Assembly: GCA_020630675.1 (NCBI GenBank)
Contig: JAHDIR010000014.1
Span: forward strand, 1-62,041
DNA from: Bdellovibrionales bacterium
GTDB lineage: Bacteria > Bdellovibrionota > Bdellovibrionia > Bdellovibrionales > UBA1609
DNA: 62,041 nucleotides
Reading direction: 5' to 3'
Shown here one piece after another: positions 55,688 through 61,955 of this stretch. The notes below the pieces were generated by a model that searched no databases, was not told the origin of the DNA, and saw only the letters and a list, made by a program, of their open reading frames with translations. Positions within the stretch are counted from its first letter, which is position 1; each line of letters begins with the position of its first letter. The position numbers were made by a program, and so were the translations under genes.

Positions 55688-56056
55688 ATGAAAAAAATGG
55701 TTTTGTTATTTACTGCGGTGTGCTGCTTATTCAGTATAAACGCTTTTGCGAGCGATAAGATGATGTCTTTAAACCCTGAGCTTGAGGCTTTAAAAACAGA
55801 GGCTCTGTCCCATATGTCATCAAGCATTGATAGCTCTGACATTGGAGAACAAATAGAAGGTCAACCGGTGCAAGTTTCAGCACCTGGTATAGAGCAAGTT
55901 GGAGAGAACTCAACGATCAAATCGATTTTAATAGAGGCTTTAGAAATGAAAAGCTCTTCTGATGTTGTCGATTTTATGGATGATGTTAATAATGTCTACG
56001 GTGTGTTAAAACCTGTTTTTATGGCGGCCTGCTGTGGTTGTGGAAATTGCGATTAA
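55688..56056 (+). CDS. Small exported protein with C-terminal cysteine cluster
   Basis: 122 residues. Signal peptide of 21 residues (FTAVCCLFSINAFA), then a mature part of about 101 residues. That part is acidic and Ser/Met-rich, with no cysteine until the very end, which reads MAACCGCGNCD (Cys115, 116, 118, 121). Such a terminal cluster could bind metal, form disulfides or anchor the protein. The gene has its own sigma-54 promoter, a very strong ribosome binding site and a strong terminator, so it is built for regulated high expression. It faces away from the CHASE2 kinase. No family is recognised. Confidence 0.8.
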   Translation: MKKMVLLFTAVCCLFSINAFASDKMMSLNPELEALKTEALSHMSSSIDSSDIGEQIEGQPVQVSAPGIEQVGENSTIKSILIEALEMKSSSDVVDFMDDVNNVYGVLKPVFMAACCGCGNCD

Positions 56057-56153: not shown

Positions 56154-56495
56154 TTACCAATGAATGGGCAGGAACTTTCCATCTTGATCTAAAATTAAGT
56201 CTTTTGCTTTTTCAACGGCATTTATATTCAATGCACCATAAATATGAGGATATGAAGTAGATCCTCCTTCTAAATTTTCATAAATAATTTTTTTATCGAC
56301 TAGTTCAACGTTTATTTTGAGTAAAACTAAACCATTTTGTCCTTTGAAAATTCTATGGCTTACTTCTAAGTATTGCTTTTCTGTTGAGCAATGAATAAAG
56401 CCATCAGTTTTTAAGGTGCAATAATCATATAAGTTCTTTGCAAGAGCCTTCGCCCATGTTTCTTTTTTTGTTATATGAAATATGTAGGCGCTCAT
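56154..56495 (-). CDS. DUF952 family protein
   Basis: 113-residue cytoplasmic protein matching DUF952: it starts with YIFHITKKETWAKA, has the signature DGFIHCSTEKQYLEV, then GLVLLKINVELV and YPHIYGALNINAVEKAKDL. The family is small and of unknown biochemical function, sometimes likened to ADP-ribosyl-type folds. It follows the PBP gene after five bases, with AGGAG inside the end of that gene, so it is co-transcribed with cell-wall synthesis. Confidence 0.85.
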   Translation of the reverse strand: MSAYIFHITKKETWAKALAKNLYDYCTLKTDGFIHCSTEKQYLEVSHRIFKGQNGLVLLKINVELVDKKIIYENLEGGSTSYPHIYGALNINAVEKAKDLILDQDGKFLPIHW

Positions 56496-56500
56496 TAGGT

Positions 56501-58840
56501 CTATTTCTCCTTTTTGTAACTTCTTAAAAAGCTAGGAGTTATAGCTTCAAGAAAAAACTGTTTTTTGTACTTTTGCACTTCTTGGTTAGGAAGCATCAAG
56601 ACGGTATTTTGTTTTTCATGGTCTTTTAAAGAAGGAATCATTCTTGATAGAATTGAAGAACTGACTTCAATAGAAGCTAAACTCTCAGGCCAGGCAAAGT
56701 CATTAGTTGTTGGAAATAAGGTAAGGACTTTACTCATATACTCAGACCATACAGGAAGGGCTCCCGAGGATCCAGTTAAACCAGTAGATTTATTTTGATC
56801 GTTTCCGACCCAAACAATGGTCATAGTGTCTGGAGTAAAGCCTACAAACCAAGAATCTCGGGTGTTATTTGTGGTTCCTGTTTTACCAGCAATAGGGTGA
56901 GTAAACTTTCTCCAGGTTGTTAAGCTTCTGGCCGTCCCTGTTTTAGCAGTTTGTTGTAAAATATTAATAAGCTGAGCACTGGTGTGAGAAGAGATGAGTT
57001 GTCTGGTATTTTTAGGTGTTGAGTATAAAACTTCGTTCTCTAAATTAAGAACTTTAGTGATAAGTTTTAGTTTTTTTTCTGAACCTAAATTAGCTAAGTT
57101 AACATAGGCTTGCGCTAGTTCAATTTGAGTGAGCTCCAAAGAACCCAACGAAAGTGATGGCACTGCTTTTAAGGGAGAGCGAATGCCTAAACGTTTACTC
57201 ACATCGATAACAGATTCTATACCAATATTCATTCCAAGGTGAGCGGTGGGAGCATTGATGGAATTTTTTAAAGCATAGTAAAGAGGAACTTGCTCTTGAA
57301 ATGTGCGCGAATAATTTTTTGGGGTCCAAGACTGTCCTTCGTATTTGTAAGTGGTTAACTTGTCAGGAAGAAGAGTTAAAGCCGAATAAGGGTGCCCATC
57401 AGGGTCTTTTGTTTCTAGAGCGGCTAAATAAACAAAAGGCTTCATAAGAGAGCCAACCTGTCGCTCGGCCTTCAAGGCTCTATTAAATGGTGAGCTTTGA
57501 AAGCTACTCCCACCGATAAGAGCTTTGATAGCGCCATTTTGTAAATCAATATTTATAAGGCTAGATTGTAAAGAGGGACGTTTTTTATTGGTGCTTAGTT
57601 TCTTGAGGGTACTAGAGACAGCTTTTTGTGCATGAATTTGACGAAACGGGCTTAAGGTTGTGAAAACCTTTAAGCCTTTAGAGTTGTCTAGGTCGAGAAC
57701 TTTCAACTCTTGTTGAGTGGCGTCTAAAAAATAAGAAGAAAATTGAGAGCTGACAAACTTAGGCTTTTTGGGGAGGGGGGTGTTTAGGGCTTCATCAAAT
57801 TCTAGGCTTGAAATATATTTTGACTCCAACATATGGTTAAGAACTTTTTTTCTTCGAGAAAGAGCCCGTTCTTGGTTTTTAAATGGGTTATAGCGACCTG
57901 GGCTGTTTACAATAGCTGCTAATAAGGAGCATTCAGGCAGGGATAAATTTTGAATTTCTTTTTGAAAGTAATGGCGGGCAGCCGCCGAATAACCTCTGAC
58001 TTGAAAGGGGCCACTTTGTCCGAGGTAAATAACATTTAAGTAATTTGAAAGTATCTCATCCTTGCTGACTTTAGCCTCAAGTAAAATAGCCATAAAGAGT
58101 TCTTTGAATTTTCTTTTAAAAGTTCTTTCTGGTGTTAAAAAATAATTTTTAATTAACTGTTGGGTGATTGTGCTGGCACCTTCCGAAATAGAAGCTTTGG
58201 TGATGTTCTTAATCATGGCTCGGGCTATACCTTTTAAGCTGATACCTCGATGATTAAGAAAGTTTTTATCTTCAATGGCAGTAATAGATTGAAGGCATTG
58301 AAGAGGGATATCTCCCACTGAAATGTGAGATCTTAAAAAAGGTGTGTTTTTGTAGTATTGAGCCACCACAAAAGGAGGGAGTTGAAACTGAGAGACACTT
58401 TTATTATTTGTAAAAATATGCTCAATTTTATTTTCAAAACTTAAAGAAACCAGCACTTTTTCGGACCGAGTTATTTGTAAAATATAACAACGATCAATGT
58501 TTTCTTCATGATTTGAATTGGCAACTTTTATAAGTCCGTTGAGATTAAAGAGACATTCATTTCTGTCGATAACTTTATATTCTTTGATATTAAGCTGTGC
58601 ATTTGTATGAGGTTTAAATTGAGAGTATTGCAAGAGTTCTTTTAGTTTTTTGTCAGGTAACTCAGCTTTTAGAAAAAGAGTTTCTCCTGAGGCGTAGACT
58701 TCTGTGGCGGGAGGAAACCAGCCCTCAGCCAAACGTTGATCGATCTCATGATTAATAAATAACAGCCAGCCTAAAAACACAATAGCGATAATTAGGAAAA
58801 TCGGCAGGGTTGTCTTAAATATTTTACGTAGAATGTTCAA
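56501..58840 (-). CDS. Bifunctional penicillin-binding protein, PBP1b-like
   Basis: 779-residue class A PBP that polymerises and cross-links peptidoglycan. N-terminal membrane anchor (about 12-30), a UB2H-like region (about 60-150), the GT51 glycosyltransferase with catalytic Glu in TAIEDKNFLNHRG and EGASTITQQLIKNYF, then the transpeptidase with SxxK (GSLMKPFVYL), SxN (NSINAPTAHLG) and KTG (AGKTGTTNNTRDSWFVGFT). The UB2H region marks it as PBP1b-type, which in E. coli is activated by LpoB; no LpoB-like gene is evident here. TTG start at 58840 with AAAGG upstream. Confidence 0.92.
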   Translation of the reverse strand: MNILRKIFKTTLPIFLIIAIVFLGWLLFINHEIDQRLAEGWFPPATEVYASGETLFLKAELPDKKLKELLQYSQFKPHTNAQLNIKEYKVIDRNECLFNLNGLIKVANSNHEENIDRCYILQITRSEKVLVSLSFENKIEHIFTNNKSVSQFQLPPFVVAQYYKNTPFLRSHISVGDIPLQCLQSITAIEDKNFLNHRGISLKGIARAMIKNITKASISEGASTITQQLIKNYFLTPERTFKRKFKELFMAILLEAKVSKDEILSNYLNVIYLGQSGPFQVRGYSAAARHYFQKEIQNLSLPECSLLAAIVNSPGRYNPFKNQERALSRRKKVLNHMLESKYISSLEFDEALNTPLPKKPKFVSSQFSSYFLDATQQELKVLDLDNSKGLKVFTTLSPFRQIHAQKAVSSTLKKLSTNKKRPSLQSSLINIDLQNGAIKALIGGSSFQSSPFNRALKAERQVGSLMKPFVYLAALETKDPDGHPYSALTLLPDKLTTYKYEGQSWTPKNYSRTFQEQVPLYYALKNSINAPTAHLGMNIGIESVIDVSKRLGIRSPLKAVPSLSLGSLELTQIELAQAYVNLANLGSEKKLKLITKVLNLENEVLYSTPKNTRQLISSHTSAQLINILQQTAKTGTARSLTTWRKFTHPIAGKTGTTNNTRDSWFVGFTPDTMTIVWVGNDQNKSTGLTGSSGALPVWSEYMSKVLTLFPTTNDFAWPESLASIEVSSSILSRMIPSLKDHEKQNTVLMLPNQEVQKYKKQFFLEAITPSFLRSYKKEK

Positions 58841-58924: not shown

Positions 58925-59212
58925 ATGTTAAGTATGAAAATGACAGATAAACAAATCCAAAGAATGGTGAAGCTTGTTTTTGACGAACTCAAAGCTCATA
59001 ACGTAATTACATTTAAAGACAAAGAGGAAAAGGTTTTCTCAAGAGCGGTCGCTCTCGTCGAAAATGACTTTAATCACGAAAAAGATCTCGATGAGGAAGT
59101 CAATAAGATGATGGATGACCTTGAGCGCCAAAACCCTGGGTCTTTTCAGCGTTATAAGATGTTTCCACTTCTAAAAAAGCGTTTAGCCAAAGAAAAAGGG
59201 ATTGTATTATGA
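58925..59212 (+). CDS. DUF507 family protein (first of two)
   Basis: 95-residue charged helical cytoplasmic protein matching DUF507: MTDKQIQRMVKLVFDELKAH near the start, then EEVNKMMDDLERQNPGSFQR and KMFPLLKKRLAKEKGIVL. The start may be ATG 58925, 58934 or 58940; no ribosome binding site decides. It overlaps the second DUF507 gene by four bases (ATGA). The function of the family is unknown; it is typical of deltaproteobacterial-grade genomes, as I recall. Confidence 0.8.
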   Translation: MLSMKMTDKQIQRMVKLVFDELKAHNVITFKDKEEKVFSRAVALVENDFNHEKDLDEEVNKMMDDLERQNPGSFQRYKMFPLLKKRLAKEKGIVL

Positions 59213-59484
59213 GTATATCAGAAGAGCGCCAAAGCCATTTAGCCCATGTCATAGTAGAGGGTTTATGGAAAGATGATTTAGTTGATTATACAGATGAAGA
59301 CTTTGCTTTACGTTTAGGTAAAAAAGCGGTAGTTAAGTACGCCCAAGAGGTTCAGCAGGTCGATGCAAAAGCTCGACAAATGGTGGAGTCTCTTAAAAGA
59401 GGAGTGCCTGAAGGTTCTCCAGAATGGGAAGTTTTGTACAGAAAATACTTTGAACAGGAGCTCGATAAGCGTGGCATTAGCTAA
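59209..59484 (+). CDS. DUF507 family protein (second of two)
   Basis: 91-residue helical protein, a divergent relative of its upstream neighbour: SHLAHVIVEGLWKDDLVDYT, then VVKYAQEVQQVDAKARQMVE and SPEWEVLYRKYFEQELDKRG. The ATG overlaps the first DUF507 stop and its own last 14 bases overlap the GroES-fusion gene, so all three are translated from one coupled message. Two paralogues side by side suggest a heterodimer. Confidence 0.78.
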   Translation: MSISEERQSHLAHVIVEGLWKDDLVDYTDEDFALRLGKKAVVKYAQEVQQVDAKARQMVESLKRGVPEGSPEWEVLYRKYFEQELDKRGIS

Positions 59485-60334
59485 GAAAAAAAAGAAAAAG
59501 GCAGTTAAAAAAAAGAAAACCTCAATACGAAAAAAGTCTAAGAAAAAAGTAGCCTCTCCATCAAAATCCAGAGGGAAGAAAGCAACTAAAAAGAAAGCCT
59601 CTGCGAAGAAAAAGAAAGTTGTGAAGAAAAAAGTCGCTAAAAAGAAAACCACGGCTAAAAAGAAAGTTGCCAAAAAGAAAACAACAAAAAAAACAGGTAA
59701 GAAAAAAACTTCTGCAAAAAAAACCTCCAAGAAAACGGCAAAACGTAAGCTGTCCTCTAAAAAGGTGACAAAAAAAACTACCAGGAAAAAGGCCTCCAAA
59801 AAGCCCACAAATAAAAAGTCTTCGGCTCGCAAAGTGAAAACAAAAAAAACGACGGCAAAAAAGAAAACTTCAAAAAAAGTTTCTAAAAAAAAGGCGTCGA
59901 CAAAAGTTTCTAAAAAAACATCGCCAAAGAAAAAAGCGGCTGTAAGAAAAACACAGGCTAAAAAATCAGTAAAAAAGAAACCGGTTAAAAAAGCTCCGCT
60001 TTTAAAAATCAAAGGTAAAAAAGGCCAGCCCACGGATTGGAATAAATTTTTGACTCCTTTAGATGATCGAGTTTTGATTGCTAGAGCAGGAGTCAGTGAT
60101 AAAACTGCAGGTGGTTTATATATTCCTCAGTCGGCCCAACAGTCAGCTCCCAATAAAGGCACGGTTTTATGTGTTGGTCGTGGAGCCCAGGGTAAAAAAG
60201 GGGCTATTAAATCAATGGATGTGCAAGTTGGCGACGAAGTGATCTTTGGTGAGCATGCGGGTGTTTCTGTAAATATGGATAGCCAAGAATTACTCATTGT
60301 CAGAGAAGCTGATATTATTGGTAAATACAGCTAA
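59471..60334 (+). CDS. GroES (Cpn10) domain with histone-H1-like lysine-rich N-terminal tail
   Basis: 287 residues. I start at GTG 59471, with AGGAG 10 bases upstream; a longer frame upstream is the shadow of the DUF507 gene. Residues 5-184 are an almost uninterrupted Lys/Ala/Ser/Thr-rich tail (repeats such as AKKKTTAKKKVAKKKTTKK), like histone H1 tails. Residues 191-285 are a GroES domain: FLTPLDDRVLIARAGVSDKT, the GroEL-binding loop AGGLYIPQSA (213-222), GTVLCVGRGA, DVQVGDEVIFGEHAG and ELLIVREADII. GroES is normally about 97 residues with no tail. The tail could bind DNA, RNA or acidic surfaces. Confidence 0.9.
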   Translation: MALAKKKKKKAVKKKKTSIRKKSKKKVASPSKSRGKKATKKKASAKKKKVVKKKVAKKKTTAKKKVAKKKTTKKTGKKKTSAKKTSKKTAKRKLSSKKVTKKTTRKKASKKPTNKKSSARKVKTKKTTAKKKTSKKVSKKKASTKVSKKTSPKKKAAVRKTQAKKSVKKKPVKKAPLLKIKGKKGQPTDWNKFLTPLDDRVLIARAGVSDKTAGGLYIPQSAQQSAPNKGTVLCVGRGAQGKKGAIKSMDVQVGDEVIFGEHAGVSVNMDSQELLIVREADIIGKYS

Positions 60335-60518: not shown

Positions 60519-61955
60519 ATGCTTTTCAAATTTATCCTTTCGTTTTTAATGACTTTTTCGAGTGCATTTGTTTGGGCCGATCTTCAATGGTCAGGGGTTT
60601 ATCGCTTTGAAGGGTTGATGCTTGATAAAGTTGGTCTTGATTCCGGAAGTAAGTCGAAAGAGTATGCCGTTCACCATTTAGTTTTAAAACCTAAAATTAC
60701 TGTAGCTGATGGTTTTGAAATTAACGCTCGATTAGATGCCTTCAATGGTGGAACTGATCAAAGTGTGCACCCAACTAATCAAATTGGTAAAGATTGGGGG
60801 GGGAGTAAAAATAATAATGACCGTTATTACACATCTTCTGAAGGAAATGCTGGAGCAGAAATTATAGAGCTCACTCAAGCTTACCTCACTTATACTCATG
60901 ACTTTGCATCTTTAGTCGTTGGGCGTGCTCCGATTAATTTTGGATTAGGTATGACCTATGATTCTGGAGACGGCCTTTTTGATCATTGGTATAACACAAG
61001 AGACTTAGTTGGATTTAAAGTTCACATTGGTAATTTTTATTTATTTCCTATGTATGCCAAGATTAGAGAAGGATCTATAAGTAACTCCGACTCCGAGGGT
61101 AAGGAGTATATGTTTCAGGCCGAGTACAAAAACCCTGATAAAGATAGCAAATTGGGGTTCTTTTATTCTGAGCGAAGGTCTAACCAAGCTGCCAATCTAT
61201 ACCCAACGTTACTTGACCCTGGCTTAGGCACAGTTTACGGGCAAGACCGAGATCAAAAAATTCGCACCATGAACTTTTATTACCAAAAAGATAACGAACA
61301 CTTTGATTATGGCTTTGAATTTTCTTATTTAAGTGGCAATACCGGCCTATCATTAAATGGCTCAGGAGTTGATATTCAAGCTTTTGGTGTCGCTGTTGAA
61401 TTAGACTATGCTATGCCTAAAAGCTCTATCGATTTAGGTTTAAAATTTGGTTATGCTTCTGGAGACGACAAATCAACAGAAGATAAAGTCGAAGGTTTTA
61501 TTTTTAACCGTAACTATGATGTTGGTATGCTTTTAATGAATCATCCTTTGGGTCGTTTAGATGCCTTAGGTACTCAAACGTTTTTAAGAACAGGCTACAA
61601 TTCATCAACGGATAACCAAAGTCGTATAGAAGACTTTGATGTAGAGGCTATTAGTAACGTAATGTACTTAGCCCCAAGCTTGACTTACCATTTTTCTGAA
61701 AATTGGTCCCTAGATTCTAAGTTAATAACTGCTTGGCTAGTAGAAGGGCCAACTGCTGCCTTAACAGATATAGATAAGTCTTTGGGTTATGAGCTAGATA
61801 TTGCTCTCAATTTTAAACCAAGTAAAAAAATTCAAATGACTTTAGAGGGAGCGGCCTTATTACCAGGCTCAGCTTTTGATACTGATCAGTCTGGAGCAGC
61901 AGTTGACAGTAAATTTACTTATGGTTTAATGGGGAAAGCAGCAGTTAGCTTTTAA
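60519..61955 (+). CDS. Outer-membrane beta-barrel protein, porin-like
   Basis: 478 residues with a signal peptide (cleavage after FVWA, about residue 21), then alternating amphipathic strands throughout (LQWSGVYRFEGLML, AYLTYTHDFASLVVGRAPIN, FGYASGD). It ends in Phe (GKAAVSF), the usual barrel C-terminal signature recognised by the assembly machinery. Length fits a 16- to 18-stranded barrel. Substrate is unknown. AGGAGC lies 9 bases before the ATG. It has its own terminator at the window end. Confidence 0.82.
   Translation: MLFKFILSFLMTFSSAFVWADLQWSGVYRFEGLMLDKVGLDSGSKSKEYAVHHLVLKPKITVADGFEINARLDAFNGGTDQSVHPTNQIGKDWGGSKNNNDRYYTSSEGNAGAEIIELTQAYLTYTHDFASLVVGRAPINFGLGMTYDSGDGLFDHWYNTRDLVGFKVHIGNFYLFPMYAKIREGSISNSDSEGKEYMFQAEYKNPDKDSKLGFFYSERRSNQAANLYPTLLDPGLGTVYGQDRDQKIRTMNFYYQKDNEHFDYGFEFSYLSGNTGLSLNGSGVDIQAFGVAVELDYAMPKSSIDLGLKFGYASGDDKSTEDKVEGFIFNRNYDVGMLLMNHPLGRLDALGTQTFLRTGYNSSTDNQSRIEDFDVEAISNVMYLAPSLTYHFSENWSLDSKLITAWLVEGPTAALTDIDKSLGYELDIALNFKPSKKIQMTLEGAALLPGSAFDTDQSGAAVDSKFTYGLMGKAAVSF

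Follow-up and report, generated by a model that had tools for sequence, protein, structure and literature searches.

The question raised by this locus is what a chaperonin lid might do with a long, histone-like tail of lysines. The window, a stretch of 62,041 nucleotides from a Bdellovibrionales genome, contains a gene, groES2, whose frame (59471–60334) is uninterrupted and open from the preceding stop, and in which a lysine-rich arm is followed by a GroES (Cpn10) domain (Table 1). Lysine accounts for 88 of residues 1–189 (~47%) and acidic residues are almost absent, so the initial annotation, which placed the Lys-rich span at residues 5–184, was right to within a few residues. The Cpn10 profile of Pfam (PF00166) is matched over positions 2–93 of 93, which means that the GroES domain is complete, and the score of 85.8 bits stands against a curated cut-off of 21.1; the protein falls below all the NCBIfam GroES cut-offs, the best score being 87.4 against 120. 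The mobile loop reads KTAGGLYIPQSA and includes the intact GroEL-binding stretch, GGLYIPQ, to which the initial annotation drew attention. No Pfam family other than Cpn10 was found in the protein at E 0.001, although low-complexity sequence of this kind cannot show homology to histone H1 or AlgP. A search of the window genome with the tail found no similar one elsewhere, low-similarity Lys-rich proteins being able to escape such a search.

Table 1. Coordinates of groES2, its parts and its neighbours in the window.
Feature	Position	Strand	Basis and remarks
groES2, Lys-rich arm plus GroES domain, 287 aa, GTG start	59471–60334	+	ORF reading; 14-nt overlap with the end of the DUF507 C-half gene
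Shine-Dalgarno AGGAG, 10 nt 5' of the groES2 GTG, within the DUF507 C-half gene	59456–59460	+	Sequence reading; same form in most relatives
N-terminal arm, residues 1–185, Lys-rich, predicted mostly disordered	59471–60025	+	Composition; pLDDT
Cpn10/GroES domain, residues 194–286	60050–60328	+	PF00166 E 2.1e-24; genome search E 4.0e-25; fold match Hsp10/GroES
GroEL-binding part of mobile loop, GGLYIPQ, residues 214–220	60110–60130	+	Invariant residues in GroES2
DUF507 N-terminal half, upstream gene in the same run	58925–59212	+	PF04368 E 3.9e-10, profile 1–93
DUF507 C-terminal half, stop 14 nt inside groES2	59209–59484	+	PF04368 E 5.5e-17, profile 95–182; overlap kept in relatives
Porin-like outer-membrane gene, 3' of groES2	60519–61955	+	PF13372 E 4e-13; TIGR04551 E 9.6e-22, under the model cut-off
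PBP1b-like penicillin-binding protein, found as a divergent neighbour across several families of the order	56501–58840	-	TIGR02071 E 1.8e-172, below its cut-off; synteny

An ordinary groES beside groEL, which the initial annotation had considered, does exist. The window genome holds two Cpn10 matches by profile search, namely groES2 and a 100-aa ordinary groES, and the latter adjoins the sole Cpn60 match of the genome on contig 20. One groEL per genome, together with a separate ordinary groES, is also the arrangement among relatives with GroES2. In one member of the same family (G005, 99% complete, 2.1 Mb), neither a Cpn10 nor a Cpn60 match was present, which may reflect a loss of GroE or an assembly gap.

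The fusion had been presented initially as one not known from the literature. This holds for the tailed protein, which seems to be undescribed in the literature searched, and fails for the gene, which was reported from Bdellovibrio bacteriovorus HD100 as bd3349 or groES2 (PMC3464611), in a gene model from which the tail was cut. No further account of bd3349, or of any Lys-rich GroES, was found in the same literature. By clade and by locus, the window gene is the order-specific GroES2 of the bd3349 type, sharing with HD100 the arrangement of PBP1b, groES2 and porin. As in HD100, a second groES lies apart from the groES1-groEL pair, with one groEL; the window arm is longer (~185 against ~119 residues), and the published protein has 117 aa, whereas the present analysis argues for translation of the arm and shows the arm to occur across the order. 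Transcription of bd3349 is known to be off early in predation and on at 2–4 h, when the cells septate (PMC3464611).

A second, weaker Cpn10 was detected by profile search in the window genome and in 47 of 78 sampled relatives, with frames of 124–333 aa except for one that is truncated by a contig end (89 aa), and every one that is not cut in this way starts with a Lys-rich arm. The fusion is therefore genuine, since the 47 relatives share the same single open frame and arrangement, and the frameshift joining of two genes that had been named at the outset as a possible source of the tail is excluded. The tailed form is distributed over eight of the ten families of the order, the other two (f3 and f4) being represented by one genome each. 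Two Cpn10 matches are present in 82 of 104 nearly complete genomes from the order, G044 is also counted on the strength of its tailed copy only, and 21 are without groES2, which speaks against an essential role and marks the gene as dispensable. It is present throughout the genus of G059 (24 of 24 genomes), and a further tailed copy occurs in L164, a Bdellovibrionaceae record. Possession of groES2 goes with a larger genome (median 3.4 Mb with the gene against 2.4 Mb in its absence, p 3e-5, kinship being ignored in this comparison). The three genomes of a sister order each have a single groES and no tailed one, and no long GroES frame outside the order was found among the matches listed, where nine two-copy genomes of other classes have frames of 97–132 aa and one fragment of 45 aa. 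Outside the Bdellovibrio order, a tailed GroES was not seen, which is put as an observation rather than as a claim of absence.

In a tree of 95 GroES domains over 100 columns, which are too few to resolve the inner branching, GroES2 forms one clade with a support of 100/99, set off by a single branch in 100% of 200 bootstrap trees, and all ordinary GroES proteins of the order and of other classes fall on the opposite side of that branch. Three contig-cut or oddly composed rows (L044, L066 and L070) were counted as GroES2 in this tree. The GroES2 branches are long, a branch of ~1.1 changes per site separating GroES2 from every other GroES, and the domain is far more diverged than that of ordinary GroES.

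The neighbourhood adds to this picture. The window has a divergent PBP1b gene followed by the two DUF507 halves, groES2 and the porin-like gene; in HD100 and in families f10 and f2, the PBP1b-groES2-porin locus is found without DUF507, as judged from translated neighbours without a family search. In 20 relatives that lack groES2 at this site (L132–L151), the porin gene mostly comes straight after the DUF507 pair, and a leftover Lys-rich frame was found at none of these 20 empty sites. Judged from these sites, the arm and the domain are gained or lost as one unit, and the idea that the tail is a separate gene or a remnant was ruled out on the same grounds. Here, as in the majority of DUF507-carrying genomes of the order, DUF507 (58925–59484) is itself divided between two overlapping genes; it is one 182-position domain in Pfam, a protein of 183 aa in Aquifex and a single frame in G021. 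Two small ORFs were also seen elsewhere in the window: one beside PBP1b on the minus strand (56154–56495), which begins MSAYIFHITKKETWAKA and has a DUF952-type likeness by eye, and one at 55688–56056 whose N-terminus is signal-like and whose end is rich in Cys (AACCGCGNCD).

Whether the arm is made at all had been answered in the negative, at least implicitly, when the start of bd3349 was moved to an internal methionine, leaving 117 aa, because the preceding region 'includes lots of repetitive sequence' (PMC3464611). The corresponding frame (L074/L103, from genome G072) is 224 aa long and its internal Met falls at codon 108 (bp 322), both as published for bd3349. If this account were right, a tail-less GroES2 of ~117 aa would be produced with the Lys-rich stretch untranslated, and HD100 (L103) does offer an in-frame ATG, codon 103 when counted from the tail start, which is followed by 117 codons, while the published RT-PCR is silent on the protein start. 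The main text of a 2025 proteome (PMC12546842) names only GroES1. However, close relatives such as L104–L106 lack the ATG chosen in HD100, the last 45 codons before the domain contain no start codon whatever in 11 of 45 genes, and the sole internal candidate near the domain in the window is a TTG. The start signals lie instead in front of the arm, where most of the DUF507-linked genes have GARGAGGAG, a spacing of ~10 nt and (G/A)TGGC, and the DUF507 stop falls 8–17 nt past the groES2 start in most relatives; in the genus Bdellovibrio, HD100 included, GAAAGGA precedes GTGGCTAAG at the tail start. Pairing with the anti-Shine-Dalgarno sequence at the tail start amounts to -6.6 kcal/mol in the window and to a mean of -7.5 over 45 genes, against a mean of -2.0 kcal/mol for the 94 start codons that lie internally near the junction, and only in L061 and L068 does an internal site pair better than the tail start. 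The arm is also constrained as protein: three close, mutually independent pairs give omega values of 0.09, 0.14 and 0.19, and the pooled changes comprise 53 of 228 synonymous against 28 of 732 non-synonymous (p 6e-17; transitions alone, p 5e-5). The 45 arms, of varied G+C, contain 2271 Lys codons, each one step from a stop, and no stop is present, whereas the +1 frame is closed in every one of them.

The same evidence bears on a neutral origin, according to which the arm would be a low-complexity expansion from A-rich repeats. The Lys share of the arms does fall with G+C (Spearman -0.67) and their length varies several-fold, as such an origin would have it, but the dominance of Lys persists in genomes of 33% up to 64% G+C, Arg is avoided and both Lys codons are used; the arm is under purifying selection, its first 19 codons are near-invariant in close pairs, and it is lost together with the domain, leaving empty sites without an arm. 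A role for poly-A DNA or slippage in place of a protein was disfavoured as well, runs of at least 8 A being absent from most high-G+C tails while Lys is kept. A neutral expansion is very improbable, and so, to the same degree, is production of the tail-less form. Given the conserved Shine-Dalgarno sequence and start, the purifying selection, the lack of stops, the KKxxx pattern described below and the 11 genes without an internal start, the internal start, which the initial annotation had recognized as a threat to its reading, is strongly disfavoured and the arm looks genuinely made, contrary to PMC3464611. The comparisons as a whole indicate that the gene, though known, has been misdescribed, and that its arm is ancient and under selection.

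The histone-H1-like composition noted at the start is borne out across the order. In 59 arms, whose starts were set by an automatic rule that may be off by some residues in a few, the length is 44–211 residues (median 111), and Lys makes up 18–54% of each arm and 39% overall, followed by Ala (19%), Ser, Thr and Val (~8% each) and Pro (5.5%), with only 1.2% acidic residues and a net charge of +16 to +99. The Lys:Arg ratio is 28:1 in the arms against 1.3:1 in the GroES2 domains. Lysines recur every 4–5 residues (z +30 at lag 5, and ~+16 and ~+18 at lags 9 and 10), a periodicity that goes beyond composition alone and defines a KKxxx pattern, and this pattern of charge is kept while the order of residues varies widely. 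An AlphaFold single-chain model has a pLDDT of <50 over most of residues 73–163, a weakly predicted helix at the arm start and a good Cpn10 domain, with a pLDDT of ~90–95 in its second half; the top Foldseek matches of the domain model in the PDB are Hsp10/GroES chains (E 1.8e-8). In the loop, T212, G214, G215, I218 and P219 are invariant in the GroES2 of 16 genomes, and the T, GG, I and P hold throughout 18 aligned sequences; unusual loops without GG occur in a few relatives, such as G047.

These features suggest a role that may be stated as follows. The GroES2 domain would form the usual seven-fold ring and dock on the sole GroEL through its conserved loop, giving an alternative lid that brings some +110 to +690 of flexible positive charge in seven arms. 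GroES tolerates extra N-terminal sequence. The arms, presumably disordered, would bind polyanions, above all nucleic acid, whether as nucleoid, mRNA or rRNA, and would thereby place or hold GroEL-GroES2 chambers at the polyanion in one phase of life, which in Bdellovibrio would be late growth and septation. Since DNA is bound by H1-like Lys tails, nucleic acid comes first among the candidate partners. Such a lid, with its seven polylysine arms, would, late in the growth cycle, bring the single GroEL to the nucleoid, to polysomes or to polyphosphate, and this proposal was given a probability of roughly 0.45. The fusion, the translation start, the selection on the arm, its age and its restriction to the order rest on sequence, and the late transcription is taken from the literature; the heptamer, the docking on GroEL, the binding of nucleic acid and the tethering are the parts that we infer. 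Docking may fail in some species, since the domain has diverged and a few loops are without GG. As far as was found in the literature searched, spatial control of a chaperonin through its lid has no prior description.

Three other roles were weighed against tethering at nucleic acid. The arms may target polyphosphate granules, either bringing a folding chamber there or organizing the granules in the manner of AlgP, and this is a serious rival, if an unlikely one, because AlgP, the well-studied bacterial analogue, sits on such granules: it has an H1-like tail of KPAA repeats that is needed to space them (PMC9239181), and the GroES2 arms share its type of composition. Since the AlgP tail binds DNA too (PMC9239181), composition cannot separate the two targets. 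Slightly less probable is a GroES2 that has left the GroEL cycle, its Cpn10 ring merely joining seven H1-like arms into a multivalent compactor of DNA. The strong divergence of the domain and the expression in HD100 at septation, near the time at which the nucleoid is re-packed, would suit such a function, but a pure scaffold needs none of the docking residues that are invariant in the alignment, and most of the GroEL-contact residues are retained in GroES2 (PMC3464611). More doubtful again is an action on the cage or its clients, in which the arms would bind acidic clients or GroEL and alter capture, cage size or the release of the lid without localizing anything. The idea of a second lid that serves special clients of the late stage comes from PMC3464611, and the GroEL of the window genome has the usual GGM C-terminus, so any change to the cage must come from the lid; on the other hand, no client is indicated by sequence, and an arm of variable length and order that keeps its charge pattern is more in keeping with polyanion binding than with an interface fitted to a partner.

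A polyanion-tethering lid of this kind, as preferred here, can be set beside several known proteins. Ordinary GroES (PF00166; E. coli GroES, 1aon) has the complete domain, loop and fold that are seen in the window protein, which differs in having 287 aa instead of ~97–104 aa, in its arm and in its separate clade. Chloroplast Cpn20 (7ekq), a tandem Cpn10 and the best PDB sequence match, likewise has extra sequence before the matching domain, but there the extra part is a second Cpn10 domain and not a disordered polycation. The gp31 protein of phage T4 is also a second lid for one GroEL with special clients, though it gives only a weak fold match to the GroES2 domain (Foldseek E 3.7e-3). It enlarges the GroEL cage and is without a polycationic arm. 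No special similarity between gp31 and GroES2 was noted in PMC3464611 either. AlgP and PhaF of Pseudomonas couple an unrelated domain to an H1-like tail that is long, disordered and rich in Lys, and are analogues in the binding of polyanions (PMC9239181); theirs is a C-terminal KPAA-repeat tail on a helical domain, as opposed to an N-terminal KKxxx arm on a chaperonin lid, and the resemblance is one of composition that implies no homology.

If the arm is made as argued here, the published gene model of groES2 is corrected, and studies designed around the 117-aa form would leave out almost half of the protein. The 21 genomes of the order without the gene are natural losses that can be used for comparison, and genetic tools are available in B. 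bacteriovorus. If the proposed role is true, a chaperonin lid can carry a localization device, and a single GroEL would therefore be usable in different places and phases of life by an exchange of lids.
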